Source of the DNA: Thermoanaerobacter pseudethanolicus ATCC 33223
GTDB lineage: Bacteria; Bacillota; Thermoanaerobacteria; Thermoanaerobacterales; Thermoanaerobacteraceae
Assembly (NCBI RefSeq): GCF_000019085.1
Contig: NC_010321.1
Coordinates: 1,499,001 to 1,563,000, forward strand
DNA: 64,000 nucleotides
Reading direction: 5' to 3'
This document shows, in pieces, positions 4,367 to 44,256 of the stretch (positions are counted from its first letter, which is position 1; every line of letters starts with the position of its first letter). Below the pieces are notes generated by a model. The model was given only the letters and a program-made list of their open reading frames with translations. It was not told the origin of the DNA and made no database searches. The position numbers and the translations under genes were made by a program.

Positions 4367-4383
4367 TGCAAATCTCCTTCCTT

Positions 4384-4500
4384 TATTGCCTCCGGAGTTA
4401 GCTGTCGGGTGCGGGACAGAAGGTATCCCTACTGCAGCTTCACTGCAGATTAACCCCAAAAAGCGGTTCCTCCGTACCTTTCGGATTCGGCAAGATTGCA
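4384..4500 (-). promoter_or_regulatory. c-di-AMP riboswitch (ydaO/yuaA type)
   Basis: The minus strand carries the conserved ydaO/yuaA blocks in order: CCGAATCCG, GGTACGGAGGAACCGC, TTTGGGGTTAATC, TAGGGATACCTTCTGTCCC, GCACCCGACAGCTAACTC and CGGAGGC. A closing stem pairs TTGCC (4489-4493) with GGCAA (4386-4390). It lies immediately upstream of the NlpC/P60 start. This class senses c-di-AMP and usually turns genes off when ligand is high. No clear terminator is visible in the short space before the GTG, so control of ribosome access is possible. Confidence 0.93.
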
Positions 4501-4623
4501 TATTTTGTCCTTTTGTCTTATCTTATCATATCCTACAGTCAAAGTCAATGTTTACATTACATTTTCTTAAACTTTTTAATCTTTTTTTAATATATTTTAT
4601 AAAAAATTAATAATTTGTGTGAC

Positions 4624-37394: not shown

Positions 37395-37937
37395 TCACCG
37401 CCCACTATTCTCAAAGGTTTTAACCACATTTTGTATATCTTTAATTTCATACCCTAAAATTAATAATACAGTTATTACAAATAATGAGTTATATATATTA
37501 TACTGTCCAGGAACTTTTATTTCAACAGGTATTTCCAATGGCTCTATCAATCTGCCTTTTAAATTAAAAAAAGACCTTTGTACGCAATAATTGAATCCAT
37601 AGCCTCCATCTTCGTATAATATAGAAGAAGCAGTTATAGAAGATTTAGGATTCAACCCGCAAGTTATAAGAGTAGAATTTATTCCCCGTGCAAAAAGTTT
37701 ATTTGATTTTTCATCATCAGCGTTTATTATTATTACACTACTGGGGAAAGTATAGATATAATTTTTTAATTTTTGAAAATATTCATCGTTGGAAATGTTA
37801 GAAACAATTAATATGTCCACTCTTTTATTTTGGTCTTCCAATTCTTCTACTACCACTTCATTTGTATTTACACAATGAGAAATGAATTTTAAAATCGCAG
37901 TTTTCCCTGTGCTCCCGCCAATTAATATATGTATCAT
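37395..37937 (-). CDS. Short Mur-ligase-like protein
   Basis: A 180-residue protein resembling only the central ATPase domain of Mur ligases. The usual GTNGKT loop appears as GGSTGKTAIL at about 6-15, followed by VDILIVSNISNDEYF, SSVIIINADDEKSNKLFA and GQYNIYNSLFVITVLLILGY. These correspond to the D-H..G, NADD and HNxxNxxAA regions of Mur enzymes. Residues for the UDP-substrate domain and the C-terminal ligase domain are absent. The ATG at 37937 has GGGAG 8 bases upstream. It is either a remodelled regulator or a decayed ligase; I cannot tell which. Confidence 0.6.
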   Translation of the reverse strand: MIHILIGGSTGKTAILKFISHCVNTNEVVVEELEDQNKRVDILIVSNISNDEYFQKLKNYIYTFPSSVIIINADDEKSNKLFARGINSTLITCGLNPKSSITASSILYEDGGYGFNYCVQRSFFNLKGRLIEPLEIPVEIKVPGQYNIYNSLFVITVLLILGYEIKDIQNVVKTFENSGR

Positions 37938-38011
37938 ATAACCAGCTCCCATTTTTGAGTACTATTTTTATTCTTTTCCTAAACTTAAATTTTATAATGC
38001 CAATTATATGA

Positions 38012-38816: not shown

Positions 38817-39752
38817 CTATGGAAGATTCCCATTTTTTCTAAAATTATCCTCCAAAATGCTTTCTAAAAAGTTATTAATACAATCGATTATTCCCTTTTC
38901 AAATAATATTCCCTCAATTCCCTTTTCTTTTAATTCATGATATTTCATAGCGATAAATTCATAAAAATCATATCTATCTATTTTCTTTTCTTTTTCAGGA
39001 GAAATGATTAAAAATTTATCAAAAGTTGCTCTATCATTCCGCCCTACTTTCAAATAAGCCTGGGGTAACAAAGTAAGATCAACTTTTAAAAAATTCCTCT
39101 TTGTTCCGTAATTAATTAAAAAAGCTTTAGAGCAAATTAATTGAAGGAGGGATTTCAATTCCCCAATATTTCCTTCATATTGCAAAGACAAAAGCAAAGA
39201 AATTACTTCTGGATGTACAACAATATTTAAGTTGAGCCGTTTGGCTTCTTCTCTAAAAAGGTAAACAATTATCTCAATTTTCTCGTTTAGAGGCCTTTCC
39301 TCAAAAGATGGCAATTGAATGATAACTGGTATTCGTCTCATAAAAGTCTTTAAAAGAAATGAATCAGGTCTCTCTGTAGTAGCTGCTACAATCATTAAGT
39401 TAGCATTTCTTTCCACAGTATCCCCCAATTTTCGATATACTCCCTTGTCCATAAGGTAAAATAACATCTCTTGACCTTCAGGAGGTAATCTGTGAACCTC
39501 GTCAAGGAATAATATCCCTTTATCAGCTTTCTCTACTAAACCTATCTTATCTACATCAGCTCCAGTATAGGCTCCTTTAACATGTCCAAACAAATAAGAC
39601 ATAAGAAGTTGAGGATTGTTATAGTAATCCGCACAGTTTAACACTTCAAGAGGTCCTACCCTACCATTTTGAAGACTAAATTTGTGCATCATCTCTGCGA
39701 AAAAAGATTTACCAGAGCCCGGCGGTCCTATGATAAGAGTATGAAGTCCATA
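38817..39752 (-). pseudogene. LevR-type sigma-54 activator, AAA+ fragment (3' part)
   Basis: The C-terminal part of an enhancer-binding protein gene interrupted by the IS110 segment. From about 39752 it reads YGLHTLIIGPPGSGKSFFAE (Walker A), GHVKGAYTGAD (the sigma-54 contact loop GAFTGA, here GAYTGA), GILFLDEVHRL (Walker B) and RRIPVIIQLPSF. It stops at 38817 soon after the AAA+ domain. LevR-type proteins usually continue with PRD and PTS EIIA/EIIB-like domains for some 500 more residues, so the 3' end also seems lost. The 14 codons before 39752 belong to the inserted DNA. Confidence 0.85.
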
Positions 39753-39896
39753 AGTATTTCGGTAATATGTCAAGAGGGTGATAAAAAAATTCAAAAAAAA
39801 ATTTAATAAAATAACCTAAAAAAGGGCATAGCAAAGCTAACCATCACGCAATAAGCTAATGGAAAATAATGTAAAATATGGTTATGGGGTAATATG

Positions 39897-41156
39897 TTAA
39901 CTTATACAATCATCTCCTTTCATTATTGGGGATTTATAAAGTTTTTCTTCGCGCAGCAGAGCGAAGACTAACCTTACAGTTTTACGTGCAGTCAATACAA
40001 GAGCACGTTTATGCTTGTGAGTTTTGCTTTCTTTAAATTTGCGGGCATAGTATTGTGAGAACTCAGGTAAATACTTCCTGAGCTGGTCAGCTGCTTGAAT
40101 AAAATAATATCTGAGATACTCATTACCAGTACGCTTGAGATATGTGTCCTCCGCTTTAAAATCAGCAGACTGGTACTCTGACCAATAAAGGCCGGAAAAC
40201 TTTGCAAGGGCATTATCATTATCAAACCTTGAAATTCCGCCTATCTCAGATATTAAGCCGGCTGCGATGGTTGGGCCAATACCTTTTACTGATGTAAGAC
40301 AAAGGAATTCATTGTTAAATCCTTTGACCTCATTAATAATGGCTTTTTCTACAGCTTTCTTCTGCTTTTCAAGGGACTGTAGATTATCAAAGCAAGACTT
40401 GATAACAAAGTTTAAAGAATCATCTACAGTAGCATTAATTCTATAAGACTTGCGAACAGCCTCTTGAAGCAATTTAGCTGTAGCTTCTGGATCATCAAAG
40501 CGATCTTTACTCTTATCAACCAAAAAGCCGGCAAGTTCATCAAGCGGTCGAGCCGCAATATCATCAAGGGTGAAAAACTCATTAAATATTTCAGTAGCAG
40601 TTGCTCCAAAATTATTACTAAAGACTTTATTTTGGCACAAACCGCTAAACTTAAGGAACAAATTGCTGAGTAAATAATTTTTTTCTCTAACAATACTATT
40701 AACAATGTGAAAGCGATGACGAGTAAGCCTCTGGAGAGCAAGATATCTAAAATCTACAGAACAAGATTTAGGGAGTCTACCGAATCTCAGTTTTTCAGCA
40801 ATAGCAAAGGCATCAATCCAGTCATTTTTAGGCAAATTACCGAGAGACTTTTTAAAAGCATTAATAATATTAGCATTAAAAGTAGTAATAGAAGGTTGAT
40901 AAGGCTTAAGAGCAGAATGATCAGCCAAATAATACTGGAGGTGCCAGCCATAGACTGAGGTAGATTCCAAACCAATAAAGACCTTTTGAATATTGTATTT
41001 ATTACAACACTCCAAGATACGTGATACTATAACATCACAACCATGAGGGTTATTTTCTACAGAAAAACGGGAGGAAGCATCATTACCCTCCTGGTCGAGA
41101 ATATGAACCTTGACATCATTCAGGCTTACATCCATACCAACAAAAAGCTTATTCAA
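39897..41156 (-). CDS. IS110-family DEDD recombinase (transposase)
   Basis: A 419-residue recombinase. The N-terminal RuvC-like domain has the DEDD residues in FVGMDVSLNDVKV, FIGLESTSVYG and KNDWIDAFAIAE. The C-terminal Tnp_IS116/IS110/IS902 domain shows LTSVKGIGPTIAAGLISEIG, FSGLYWSEYQS with the serine region, then LKRTGNEYLRYYFIQAA. Length is full and no frameshift is seen, so the element may be active. The start is TTG at 41156, 10 bases after AAAGGAGG. A 5' noncoding region with structured RNA precedes it, as in the IS110 subgroup. Confidence 0.93.
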   Translation of the reverse strand: MNKLFVGMDVSLNDVKVHILDQEGNDASSRFSVENNPHGCDVIVSRILECCNKYNIQKVFIGLESTSVYGWHLQYYLADHSALKPYQPSITTFNANIINAFKKSLGNLPKNDWIDAFAIAEKLRFGRLPKSCSVDFRYLALQRLTRHRFHIVNSIVREKNYLLSNLFLKFSGLCQNKVFSNNFGATATEIFNEFFTLDDIAARPLDELAGFLVDKSKDRFDDPEATAKLLQEAVRKSYRINATVDDSLNFVIKSCFDNLQSLEKQKKAVEKAIINEVKGFNNEFLCLTSVKGIGPTIAAGLISEIGGISRFDNDNALAKFSGLYWSEYQSADFKAEDTYLKRTGNEYLRYYFIQAADQLRKYLPEFSQYYARKFKESKTHKHKRALVLTARKTVRLVFALLREEKLYKSPIMKGDDCIS

Positions 41157-41214
41157 GATTGTTACACCTCCTTTCAAAAGTGATAAAGTAAGTAAAAGTT
41201 AATTTGAGATAACC

Positions 41215-41431
41215 CTAGCAACCAGATTATGTAGCAACCTCGCAATTAGCTCTTAATATATAAGCCTGAATCCTCTGCTGCCAGGGGCTTATATATGACA
41301 AAGCAGATTTCGCGTAAGAAAAGGCAAATCTGGTGTAGGGACCACACTTAAAAGAGCGGTCAAGCCGCATGGAGGACGAAAGCCTGTCCCACATTAACTT
41401 TACAGTATAATAATGCTACAAGTTATCTCAA
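41215..41431 (-). ncRNA. Candidate IS110 bridge RNA with its promoter
   Basis: Upstream of the recombinase on the same strand is a promoter (-35 TTGAGA 41426-41431, 16-base spacer, -10 TATACT 41404-41409). About 180 bases follow with three stems: GTGGGAC / GTCCCTAC (41386-41392 with 41335-41342), CAGATTT / AAATCTG (41326-41332 with 41304-41310), and a perfect 11-bp stem ATATATAAGCC / GGCTTATATAT (41286-41296 with 41256-41266) with a large loop. Length, position and several stem-loops with big loops match the bridge RNAs described for IS110 elements. Guide assignments to target and donor are not made. Confidence 0.6.
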
Positions 41432-41469
41432 AAGTAAATAATAAGGCCGAAAAAAGATGAGACGGCCGC

Positions 41470-41511
41470 GCCATGAATCCTGCATATTGCGCAATATTAC
41501 GGATTCATGGC
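41470..41511. repeat. 42-bp palindrome at the edge of the IS110 segment
   Basis: Outer arms GCCATGAATCC (41470-41480) and GGATTCATGGC (41501-41511) enclose a perfect 14-bp palindrome ATATTGCGCAATAT (41484-41497). It could be an IS end structure or a REP-like target. It is preceded by a second hairpin GGCCG/CGGCC (41443-41468). Confidence 0.8.
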
Positions 41512-41624
41512 AATAGATAAGATTTTAGACAAGATGAGAATATTAAAGATTTCCAGTTATAAATGCACTTTATTAAATTTTTAAGAAGTGAGACAAATTT
41601 ATTGTCTTTAAAATTAATTATACG

Positions 41625-42029
41625 AGGAGGATACAATACAGCCGCTTTGGCCTGTTCTATTTGCCCTTTGAGGCTGCCATCATGTCCTATTATATTTTCA
41701 AAAGCACATTCTTTTTCTTTTCCCAAATCTAAAAAATCAATTAAATCTTTTAGAAGTATCTCTTCCTTAACCTTATTCCCTAAAAAATGAGCTAATCTAT
41801 TTTTTTCAATATAATACACAGGTTTTGAAATAATTTTAACTATTTTCCCTTCTCTTACAAGATGATTTAAAATAAAAGACACATTGGGTCGAGCTATTTT
41901 TAGCAATTGCGCTATTTCTTCTGTAGTGACCCCACCTTTTCTATTTATCAAAAAATCCTGAAGATTAAATTCCTTACTCTTTTCTATAATGAAATTGTAA
42001 ATTTTTTCTTTATTAGTCATATAAAACAT
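41625..42029 (-). pseudogene. LevR-type sigma-54 activator, HTH fragment (5' part)
   Basis: The first 135 codons of the interrupted activator. It starts at ATG 42029 with GAGGAAGTG upstream. A winged-helix domain (about 5-75; GGVTTEEIAQLLKIARPNVSFILNHLVREGKIVKI) is followed by the lead-in to the AAA+ domain (FENIIGHDGSLKGQIEQAKA, AVLYPP). The frame then enters inserted DNA and stops at 41505. PTS-type LevR/ManR activators have exactly this order. The missing continuation is found at 38817-39752. Confidence 0.85.
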
Positions 42030-42046
42030 CACTTCCTCAATTAATA

Positions 42047-42068
42047 AACCTCCTGTCAAAAGGCAGGA
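42047..42068 (-). terminator. Expression-platform hairpin of the c-di-GMP riboswitch
   Basis: Minus strand CTCCTGCC-TTTT-GACAGGAGG followed by TTTATTAATT, between the riboswitch and the activator start. It could act as a conditional terminator. Confidence 0.55.
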
Positions 42069-42083
42069 GATTATATATAAATG

Positions 42084-42162
42084 TTGGCAGCCCGGCTATC
42101 ATAGCAAAACTATCGCTTTAGACCCGTGGCTTTGCGTCCCCGCCTTTCGACGAGTTTGCCTT
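42084..42162 (-). promoter_or_regulatory. c-di-GMP-I (GEMM-I) riboswitch
   Basis: The minus strand has the GEMM-I core in order: GGCAAAC, TCGAAAGGCGGGGACGCAAA, GCCACGGGTCTAAAG, a short variable stem (CGATAGTTTTGCTATG) and ATAGCCGGGCTGCC, which closes P1 with the initial GGCA. The GGGACGCAAAGCC block with the later GCCGGG is diagnostic. The only gene downstream on this strand is the split LevR-type activator. Whether c-di-GMP switches it on or off depends on the hairpin at 42047-42068 and cannot be decided by eye. Confidence 0.92.
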
Positions 42163-42318
42163 TTTCAACAAAAATTTATTTAATTTTCCTATATTACTAT
42201 TTCGACATAAATATGAATTTTCCTTCTATTTTTAAAAAAGATTTTTTCTACATAATTCGTTAAATTTATACTAATTTCTAAATGTATGTGTTTTATGCAT
42301 TATTTTGTGTATCAAAAA

Positions 42319-42340
42319 TGTGTATAAAAAATTATACACA
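42319..42340. promoter_or_regulatory. Candidate enhancer (UAS) inverted repeat
   Basis: Perfect 9-bp inverted repeat TGTGTATAA-AAAA-TTATACACA, 40 bases upstream of the -24 element of the sigma-54 promoter, with an extra half-site TGTGTATC just before it (42306-42313). It is the likely binding site for the adjacent activator, by position only. Confidence 0.55.
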
Positions 42341-42378
42341 TTAAAAACTTTTATTAATTTTGTCTATATACAGTAAAT

Positions 42379-42394
42379 TGGCATAAAAATTGCT
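42379..42394 (+). promoter_or_regulatory. Sigma-54 (-24/-12) promoter
   Basis: TTGGCATAAAAATTGCTT contains GG (42380-42381) and GC (42392-42393) exactly 10 bases apart, with TGGCA and TTGC around them, the sigma-54 consensus. The start of transcription would be near 42405. It faces the subtilisin gene and is divergent from a sigma-54 activator gene, which greatly strengthens the call. Confidence 0.75.
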
Positions 42395-42432: not shown

Positions 42433-42504
42433 ATGATGAATAGAAGAAAGAAACAGTTTCACTTAGCGACTAGAAGGGCTGACTTAAATTTTAAAAAATA
42501 TTAA
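42433..42504 (+). CDS. Possible 23-codon leader peptide
   Basis: ATGATG at 42433/42436 just after GAAAGGAG opens a short frame (MMNRRKKQFHLATRRADLNF, then KKY) ending at TAA 42504, within the leader of the subtilisin mRNA. It is very basic. The ribosome site is rather close to the ATG, so translation is uncertain. Confidence 0.35.
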   Translation: MMNRRKKQFHLATRRADLNFKKY

Positions 42505-42526: not shown

Positions 42527-44256
42527 ATGAAGAGCCGACAAACATTAAAAGCTTTACTGGCCTTTGTGTTAATTGTAGCTTTAATGTCGCTAAGTGGAGT
42601 ATTAGTCCAAGCCCAGCCCAACCTAACAAACTTTCCTATTAACTCATCAACAAAAAATTACTTGCCTCAAATTCAAAAAGTTTTGATGCAAGACTCTAAT
42701 AAAAATAAACTTTTTGACAACTTAGAAGCAAAAATTGCTGGTAAGCCAGACAGTGAAAAATTTCCAGTTATAATAATTTTCAACAAAAACATAGCTGATA
42801 ACGAACTATTAAATATTTCTAAATCCATTGGAAAGTTTAATATAAAGCATAAATACAAAATTATTCCAGGAATTGCTGCTACCTTAACTAAAGGACAAAT
42901 AAACGCTTTGTCAAAATTGGATATAGTAAAGCAAATTGAGTATGACGAGCCTGTATATGCCACATTAGACACTGCAACAAAATGGTTTGGGGTTACAAAA
43001 GCGAGAAGTGTTTTGGTGTAACTGGTGATAGAGACGGTAATGCTTCTTCTTATTCCAAGAATGATATAGTAATAGCAGTTATTGATACCGGTATTGATGG
43101 CTCCCATGTTGACCTCGCTGGTGGCAAAGTAATAGGATGGCAAGATTTTGTAAACGGCAAATCTACCCCCTACGATGATAATGGACACGGAACTCATGTA
43201 GCAAGTATTGCGGCAGGTACTGGGACAGGGAACAACCTTTATAAAGGTGTTGCTCCTGGTGCTGCTTTAGTAGGGATAAAAGTATTAGATTCAAACGGAA
43301 GCGGAACTATGAGCACTGTAACCGCAGGAATTGACTGGGCTGTTCAAAACAAAGACATATACGGAATCAAAGTTATAAATTTAAGCCTCGGAACTTCCAC
43401 AAGTTCTGATGGAACTGACTCTACCTCACTGGCAGTAAACGGAGCCGTAGATAGCGGAATTGTAGTAGTAGTTGCAGCTGGAAATTCAGGTCCTGCGAGA
43501 TACACCATAGGATCACCTGGTGCAGCAGAAAAAGCCATAACCGTTGCAGCAATGGCGGATGTAGGGGAACTTGGCTTTAACCTTGCAAGCTTCTCCAGCC
43601 GTGGTCCCACAGCTGACGGAAGGATAAAACCTGACATTGCAGCACCCGGATATAATATAACTGCCGCAAAAGCAAATTCTATAAATGGTTATGTGACATA
43701 CAGTGGTACAAGCATGGCTACACCTTTTGTAGCAGGTACAGTAGCCCTTATGCTCAGTGCAAATATAAACCTTGCACCACTTGATGCAAAAAATATAATA
43801 ATGACTACTGCAAAAAGTTGGGGTCCTCCAAGCAAAAACATTGACTATGGTGTAGGAAGATTGGATGCATATGAAGCAATTAAAACAGCTGGAAATTTCA
43901 CAGGAACTAATATATCTGTGCCAAACCACTATTATGCTAAAGAGTCACTTCCTGGGTCTCGTTACAGTGACATTTGGACATTTAATGTGACAGACACATC
44001 ATATCCTATTGCAATAACTTTCATAATACCTGATTGGGCAAACTATAACCCTGATTTCGATATATACCTCTATGACCCAACTGGTACTCTTGTCAAAAGT
44101 TCAACTGGAACACAAAGGCAGGAGACAATAACATACATTCCAACACAAACGGGAACCTATTATATCAAAGTATATTCCTTCCGAGGCAGTGGAAATTATT
44201 ACTTTGATTTAAGTGTAGGAGGCGGGTCACTCACCCTTTCAAGTAACGACATATAA
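42527..44256 (+). pseudogene. Secreted subtilisin-family protease (S8), frameshifted
   Basis: One gene read in two frames. From the ATG at 42527 (AAGGAGG upstream) come a signal peptide (ends VQAQP, about 32) and an I9-like propeptide (FPVIIIFNKNIADNELL, to DEPVYATLD). The frame stops at 43021. The other frame carries on with FGVTGDRDG and the S8 domain: catalytic Asp in VIDTGID, His in GHGTHVASIAAG, Ser in SGTSMATPFVAG. A C-terminal PPC-type beta domain follows (DIWTFNVTD to YYFDLSVGG). One missing T in the run GTTTTGG near 43010 explains the shift. Either the gene is dead or this is a sequencing error in a homopolymer. Confidence 0.88.

Follow-up and report, generated by a model that had tools for sequence, protein, structure and literature searches.

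A recently broken copy of a probable c-di-GMP riboswitch and sigma-54 activator relay in Thermoanaerobacter

Here we present a class-I c-di-GMP riboswitch that, as the sequence reads, is without a working output in the window (the whole 64,000-nucleotide stretch of Thermoanaerobacter pseudethanolicus ATCC 33223 that was analysed), because an IS110 element has cut the gene for a sigma-54 enhancer-binding protein (EBP) downstream of it and the frame of the neighboring subtilase is broken. The best full explanation, to which we assign a probability of about two in three, is that most sister genomes have an intact c-di-GMP relay at this locus and that the window has a copy of it that was broken not long ago. 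Where the relay is intact, the EBP mRNA would have in its leader a class-I c-di-GMP aptamer followed by a terminator. When c-di-GMP is bound, the aptamer would stay folded, the terminator would form, and no EBP would be produced; when there is no ligand, the P2 stretch of the aptamer would pair with the 5′ arm of the terminator, and the EBP would be made. This EBP, a short LevR/DagR-like protein without the PTS half, would bind a palindrome and drive sigma-54 polymerase at a divergent promoter, leading to the synthesis of a probably secreted subtilase. At high c-di-GMP the chain would be halted at the leader, and the protease would probably act in the release or turnover of surface material when c-di-GMP is low. 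A sequence-only reading of this DNA had suspected a two-layer link between c-di-GMP and sigma-54, and it is in the sister genomes that the parts of such a link are found intact.

Features of the locus

The elements of the locus, from the divergent subtilase down to the far end of the interrupted EBP gene, are as follows, with coordinates in the window and strand.

42527-44256 (+): subtilase gene (Tk-SP_N-pro, Peptidase_S8, PPC), split in the window into a pair of overlapping frames at 42527-43021 and 42982-44256
42379-42394 (+): sigma-54 (-24/-12) promoter TGGCATAAAAATTGCT of the divergent subtilase, an exact match to TGGCAYRNNNNTTGCW
42317-42342 (no strand): perfect palindrome of 11+4+11, 26 bp, candidate EBP binding site
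42083-42170 (-): c-di-GMP-I (GEMM-I) aptamer, RF01051, 89.0 bits, E 2.5e-16
42138-42151 (-): P2 stretch GUCGAAAGGCGGGG, predicted antiterminator partner of the terminator 5′ arm and loop at 42055-42069
42047-42072 (-): terminator-like hairpin, the expression platform, from a terminator scan and hairpin energy
41625-42020 (-): N-terminal part of the EBP gene, winged-HTH-like, from a domain search and comparison with the near-identical genome G005; its frame continues into the insertion sequence to 41505
39753-41624 (-): IS110 element of 1,872 bp with core CT, within the EBP gene; transposase at 39897-41177; ends placed from its copies and the uninterrupted G005 gene
38817-39752 (-): C-terminal part of the EBP gene, sigma-54 AAA+ domain and lid, PF00158, 129.8 bits; joined to the N-terminal part in G005

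The riboswitch and its expression platform

The aptamer aligns to model positions 1-87 of 87 with zero non-standard pairs marked, and it is the one RF01051 match in the 2,362,816-base genome. The sequence-only reading had placed a c-di-GMP-I riboswitch at 42084-42162 and proposed a covariance-model search, which bears out the call at full length, the 89.0 bits standing against a gathering score of 35 bits. At aptamer position 11, the counterpart of G20 of Vc2, which reads one guanine of the ligand, the window has a G, as do 7 of 8 orthologues. In the orthologous riboswitch of G004 (L130, G004:C1:810156-810243) an A replaces this G; it is at this position that ligand choice is shifted towards cGAMP in GEMM-Ib.

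The terminator scan returned 2 sites where shuffled sequence gave 0.2 on average, and the two are one hairpin read on both strands. A hairpin had already been noted at 42047-42068, and it is recovered here as the terminator-like stem running from 42072 to 42047 on the minus strand. Such a hairpin is present in all nine leaders, with an energy of -10.4 kcal/mol in the window and of -12.9 to -18.2 kcal/mol in the 8 orthologues; the U-tract is short (UUUAUUAAUU). Pairing of P2 with the terminator arm is also predicted in 9 of 9 leaders, with 13-14 consecutive pairs in eight of them and 10 + 3 in G004. When the folding of the growing RNA was followed, 8 of 9 leaders (all but L126) passed through a length at which this pairing gave the minimum-energy fold, and for this reason P2 is preferred as the antiterminator candidate. 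Against shuffles of the arm, the pairing is clear in only three of the nine orthologues: per 1000 shuffles, the observed P2 energy was matched by 1 in the window, 1 in G005, and 17 in L125, while in the remaining six it was matched by 49-113. Another antiterminator was considered, formed by the aptamer 5′ AAAAGGCA and the terminator UGCCUUUU, with -10.6 kcal/mol in 8 of 9 leaders and -3.7 kcal/mol in G004, but P2 was preferred over it. Control of a ribosome site through the GGAGG of the hairpin was ruled out, since this motif lies about 30 nt upstream of the conserved ATG. No sigma-70 promoter stands out ahead of the riboswitch, with 3 found in the region versus 3.6 expected.

Seven leaders were modelled. 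At 37 C, the probability of P1 drops from 0.64-0.88 to 0.00 in five of them after the 5′ arm has been synthesized, and in G002 and G004 P1 is never predicted. In the full-length RNA at the same temperature, the terminator has a probability of 1.00 in six leaders, the window being the exception with 0.46. Raising the temperature to 65 C leaves four leaders at 1.00 and gives 0.62 for G005, 0.12 for G004, and 0.04 for the window. By these models the window copy should terminate poorly, and the best reading of the modelled module as a whole is an OFF switch, in which c-di-GMP would lead to termination. The sequence-only reading had held that the switch should still sense its ligand, and for the aptamer this likely stands; control over a gene, however, may be lost in the window, because the terminator is weaker than in all 8 orthologues compared.

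The sigma-54 activator

The gene controlled by the riboswitch had been described as cut after 135 codons, and up to 41625 there are indeed 135 codons from the ATG at 42029, or 132 from the ATG at 42020, the start conserved in relatives, after which the IS110 element begins. The AAA+ half (Sigma54_activat, PF00158, 39752-38817 on the minus strand) lies on the far side of the element, so that both the earlier identification of a sigma-54 EBP and the absence of an intact product agree with what is found. The winged-HTH matches of the EBP fall short of the Pfam cut-offs, the best in the N-terminal part being 21.6 bits, just under the cut-off of 21.9. Walker A and GAYTGA are present in 7 of 7 intact orthologues, as belongs to an EBP; the exchange of F for Y at this position of the GAFTGA loop is already known from TouR (PMC3162934).

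Counted from the conserved ATG, the EBP of the seven intact riboswitch-bearing genomes is 430-443 aa long. For the G005 protein the best NCBIfam model is DagR, whose positions 1-433 of 938 are matched with 379 bits; this falls far short of the model's cut-off of 1400 bits, and the full-length LevR/DagR architecture with its C-terminal half is not present. By its sequence, the EBP looks like a LevR/DagR-like activator without the C-terminal half: it shares with those sigma-54 activators the order of winged HTH then AAA+, but unlike them it ends where the PTS-linked half would start. In this family, the PTS domains are located in the C-terminal half. Among the best 80 of 244 EBP relatives, 71 have frames of at least 657 residues and 9 have frames below 600; the five loci with the riboswitch in this set all belong to the nine short forms (some being the same genomes as in the genus survey below), and the other four short-frame loci (L047, L081, L111, and L115) are without it. 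A riboswitch match of 19.5 bits at L101 was taken as chance. That the short EBP arose jointly with the riboswitch is an idea weakened by G008, which has a 434-aa EBP without a detected riboswitch. Tentatively, and with odds that we place somewhat short of even, Thermoanaerobacter may have an activator of the LevR/DagR kind that lacks the sensory half, for which the riboswitch would be the only signal and through which low c-di-GMP would give rise to a secreted protease; if true, RNA would have taken over from the protein as the point at which the signal enters.

The IS110 insertion

The element in the EBP gene belongs to the IS110 family, with matches to DEDD_Tnp_IS110 (71.4 bits) and Transposase_20 (64.7 bits), both above the cut-off. 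Its position follows from comparison with the uninterrupted EBP gene of G005; CT is found at both junctions, and EBP coding resumes at 39752, immediately past the element. The genome holds 4 copies, whose transposases are identical and whose DNA is 99.3-99.9% identical. The window and G005 share 99.6-100% identity over GH65, both subtilase parts, the intergenic region with the riboswitch, the EBP N-terminal part, and SSB; for the EBP C-terminal part the figure is 98.1%. Since this near-identical genome has the EBP uninterrupted, the insertion and the orphaning read as a recent event of the window strain. The description of the riboswitch as orphaned thus holds insofar as its product is broken here, but it does not hold as a standing state.

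The window and G005 differ at 18 places in the C-terminal part of the EBP. Of these, 17 fall in 38825-39083, and 17 of the 18 are derived in the window when L125 is used to polarize them. Because the window allele of this segment matches no relative compared, the sequences suggest recombination from an unsampled lineage.

The divergent subtilase and its promoter

The subtilase, a single frame of 576 aa in 7 relatives and broken in the window, has an N-terminus that by eye reads like a signal peptide, and it is the likely target of the EBP, one of which the sequence-only reading makes no mention. Its exact -24/-12 site is the only one in the 64 kb, where 0.05 would be expected, and the promoter is found in 7 of 7 intact relatives and also in G008. 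Across the genome, TTGGCAYRNNNNTTGCW occurs 7 times and the reversed control 0 times, and no site is more than about 7 kb from an EBP domain in the list used for this comparison, which comprises 8 of the 9 PF00158 matches in the genome. RpoN is encoded in the genome away from the riboswitch locus. The 22-bp core pattern of the palindrome has one occurrence in the genome; of the 9 orthologues, 6 retain the palindrome exactly and L125, L130, and L119 do not, nor does G008. A wider EBP regulon was considered and set aside, since a search with this single exact pattern finds the core only once in the genome. The subtilase leader contains, past the sigma-54 promoter, a 23-codon frame (MMNRRKKQFHLATRRADLNFKKY, 42433-42504) with a ribosome-site-like AAAGGAG upstream, possibly a leader peptide.

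Conservation among relatives

A search of 20 family genomes for RF01051 found matches in 17 of them, at 26 places in all, one of which scores below the cut-off. Nine of these places carry the orthologous EBP, all in the genus of the window, and tblastn found the other 17 to be without it. Seven of the 10 genus genomes (G002-G007 and G010) have an intact copy of each component: subtilase, promoter, riboswitch, and EBP. In the window genome (G000), both EBP and subtilase are broken. In G009, a draft that is 94% complete with 6% contamination, the state of the locus is uncertain, since the EBP frame is interrupted, there is no exact promoter at its place (TTGGTACAAAACTTGC), a subtilase fragment adjoins the riboswitch, and another subtilase lies in two frames on another contig. 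G008 has the subtilase, the identical promoter 16-mer, and the 434-aa EBP in the same order, with no Rfam match between subtilase and EBP; a covariance search with filters off gave 8.1 bits (E 1.1, chance level) at the expected position of the riboswitch (L169 6156-6215), which could be noise or a worn remnant. In a class-wide riboswitch scan of 37 genomes, 14 new loci, from a larger number of places listed, were checked, and no such EBP was found within their flanks of about 1.5 kb. As for GGDEF domains, there are 3 matches in the window genome, one of them weak, and 4-11 in the nine other genus genomes.

The genus provides two natural comparisons for the proposed relay. One is G008, where the gene pair and its promoter occur with no riboswitch detected; the other is the window strain, in which activator and protease have been lost, both of which are retained in a nearly identical genome.

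Alternative explanations

The same module might work as an ON switch, with c-di-GMP favoring read-through and high c-di-GMP giving more EBP and more protease. Class-I ON switches are known, Bc2 of B. thuringiensis being one (PMC6366702), and the antiterminator pairing does not exceed the shuffles in 6 of 9 orthologues. However, the predicted antiterminator is built from the aptamer's own P2, so ligand binding should oppose the antiterminator, and the 7 functional C. difficile class-I switches are all OFF (PMC6366702); we consider an ON switch unlikely. Carrying only marginally less weight is the possibility that the EBP serves other genes and the subtilase is a bystander whose sigma-54 promoter is used by another EBP. 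The genome has other EBPs, and EBPs are able to act from a distance, but gene order and promoter are kept in 8 of 8 genus genomes with an intact EBP (the seven and G008), the palindrome with its single core lies between the EBP and subtilase genes, and the other exact sigma-54 promoters each have an EBP of their own nearby.

It is far less probable than either of these that the locus has been re-used in the window strain, the riboswitch transcript entering the IS110 element so that a transposase, a bridge RNA, or a DNA-binding fragment of the EBP would respond to c-di-GMP. The element does have the orientation of the riboswitch transcript, and the N-terminal frame is open to 41505. Yet 3 more copies with an identical transposase lie elsewhere, while the only RF01051 match of the genome is here, the insertion is recent, and the terminator is weakened.

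Comparison with known systems

FleQ, FlrA, and VpsR are EBPs that bind c-di-GMP as proteins. The proposed relay would likewise place an EBP-type regulator under c-di-GMP control, but here the ligand would bind the mRNA leader and there it binds the protein; if the relay is true, c-di-GMP would be tied to sigma-54 through RNA and not through an activator that binds c-di-GMP.

The nearest parallels are found in C. difficile, as described in PMC11477304 and PMC6366702. There, PPEP-1 (Zmp1, CD2830) is under a class-I c-di-GMP riboswitch that is OFF at high c-di-GMP, and the relay would resemble it in having a class-I riboswitch, OFF at high c-di-GMP, govern a secreted protease. The difference is that the metalloprotease gene itself is riboswitched in C. 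difficile, while here it is the gene of a sigma-54 activator, which would in turn activate a divergent serine protease; if true, the concrete output would be a secreted protease, as with PPEP-1, but reached through a relay. The two-layer route from a c-di-GMP riboswitch to the regulon of an alternative sigma factor also has a precedent in the class-I riboswitch of C. difficile flgB, with SigD and TcdR (PMC11477304, PMC6366702), although the sigma factor itself is riboswitched in the flgB/SigD case and here it would be the ATPase activator of sigma-54, RpoN being encoded elsewhere. Because an alternative sigma factor under riboswitch control is already known, what is new within these searches is confined to the EBP version and the divergent protease: the parts are known and the wiring is new. 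No description of a c-di-GMP riboswitch on a sigma-54 EBP was found in the open-access literature searched, judged by titles and the starts of abstracts, and a term search of a paper on the sigma-54 regulons of Clostridiales (PMC6615313) gave no hit for “riboswitch”, “c-di-GMP”, or “Thermoanaerobacter”.

In C. difficile, PPEP-1 is under class-I control, while the adhesins that are its substrates and the type IV pili are under class-II control, which runs the other way (PMC11477304, PMC6366702). In the window genome, a c-di-GMP-II riboswitch of 68.4 bits (L197 1501-1584, G000:C1:1129065-1129148) lies 26 nt before a PilB/GspE-like ATPase gene, which also has an MshE-type c-di-GMP-binding domain. 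By analogy, this arrangement would fit opposite control like that of C. difficile.

Additional observations

The IS110 copies permit an observation on target choice that is separate from the riboswitch. Among 30 loci (39753-41624; L027-L030 and L171-L196), both ends were found in 24, and directly left of the element stands CCTCCT in 23 of the 24 and CCTCCCT in one, the equivalent of AGGAGG on the opposite strand. In raw counts over 23 distinct flanks, an ATG follows 4-13 nt past AGGAGG in 14, and an ATG, GTG, or TTG in 19. This IS110 subfamily seems, from its flanks, to target Shine-Dalgarno sequences, and no such target for IS110 elements was found in the literature searched; the window copy hit a CCTCCT within the EBP coding region. 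A GTCCTCC stretch is kept in 12 of 12 aligned left ends and is a possible guide in the bridge RNA.

Elsewhere in the window, a ydaO c-di-AMP riboswitch (RF00379, 100.8 bits) lies at 4372-4502 on the minus strand, and 37395-37952 encodes a free-standing Mur-ligase middle domain of 185 aa, which has relatives at the same place in genus genomes.
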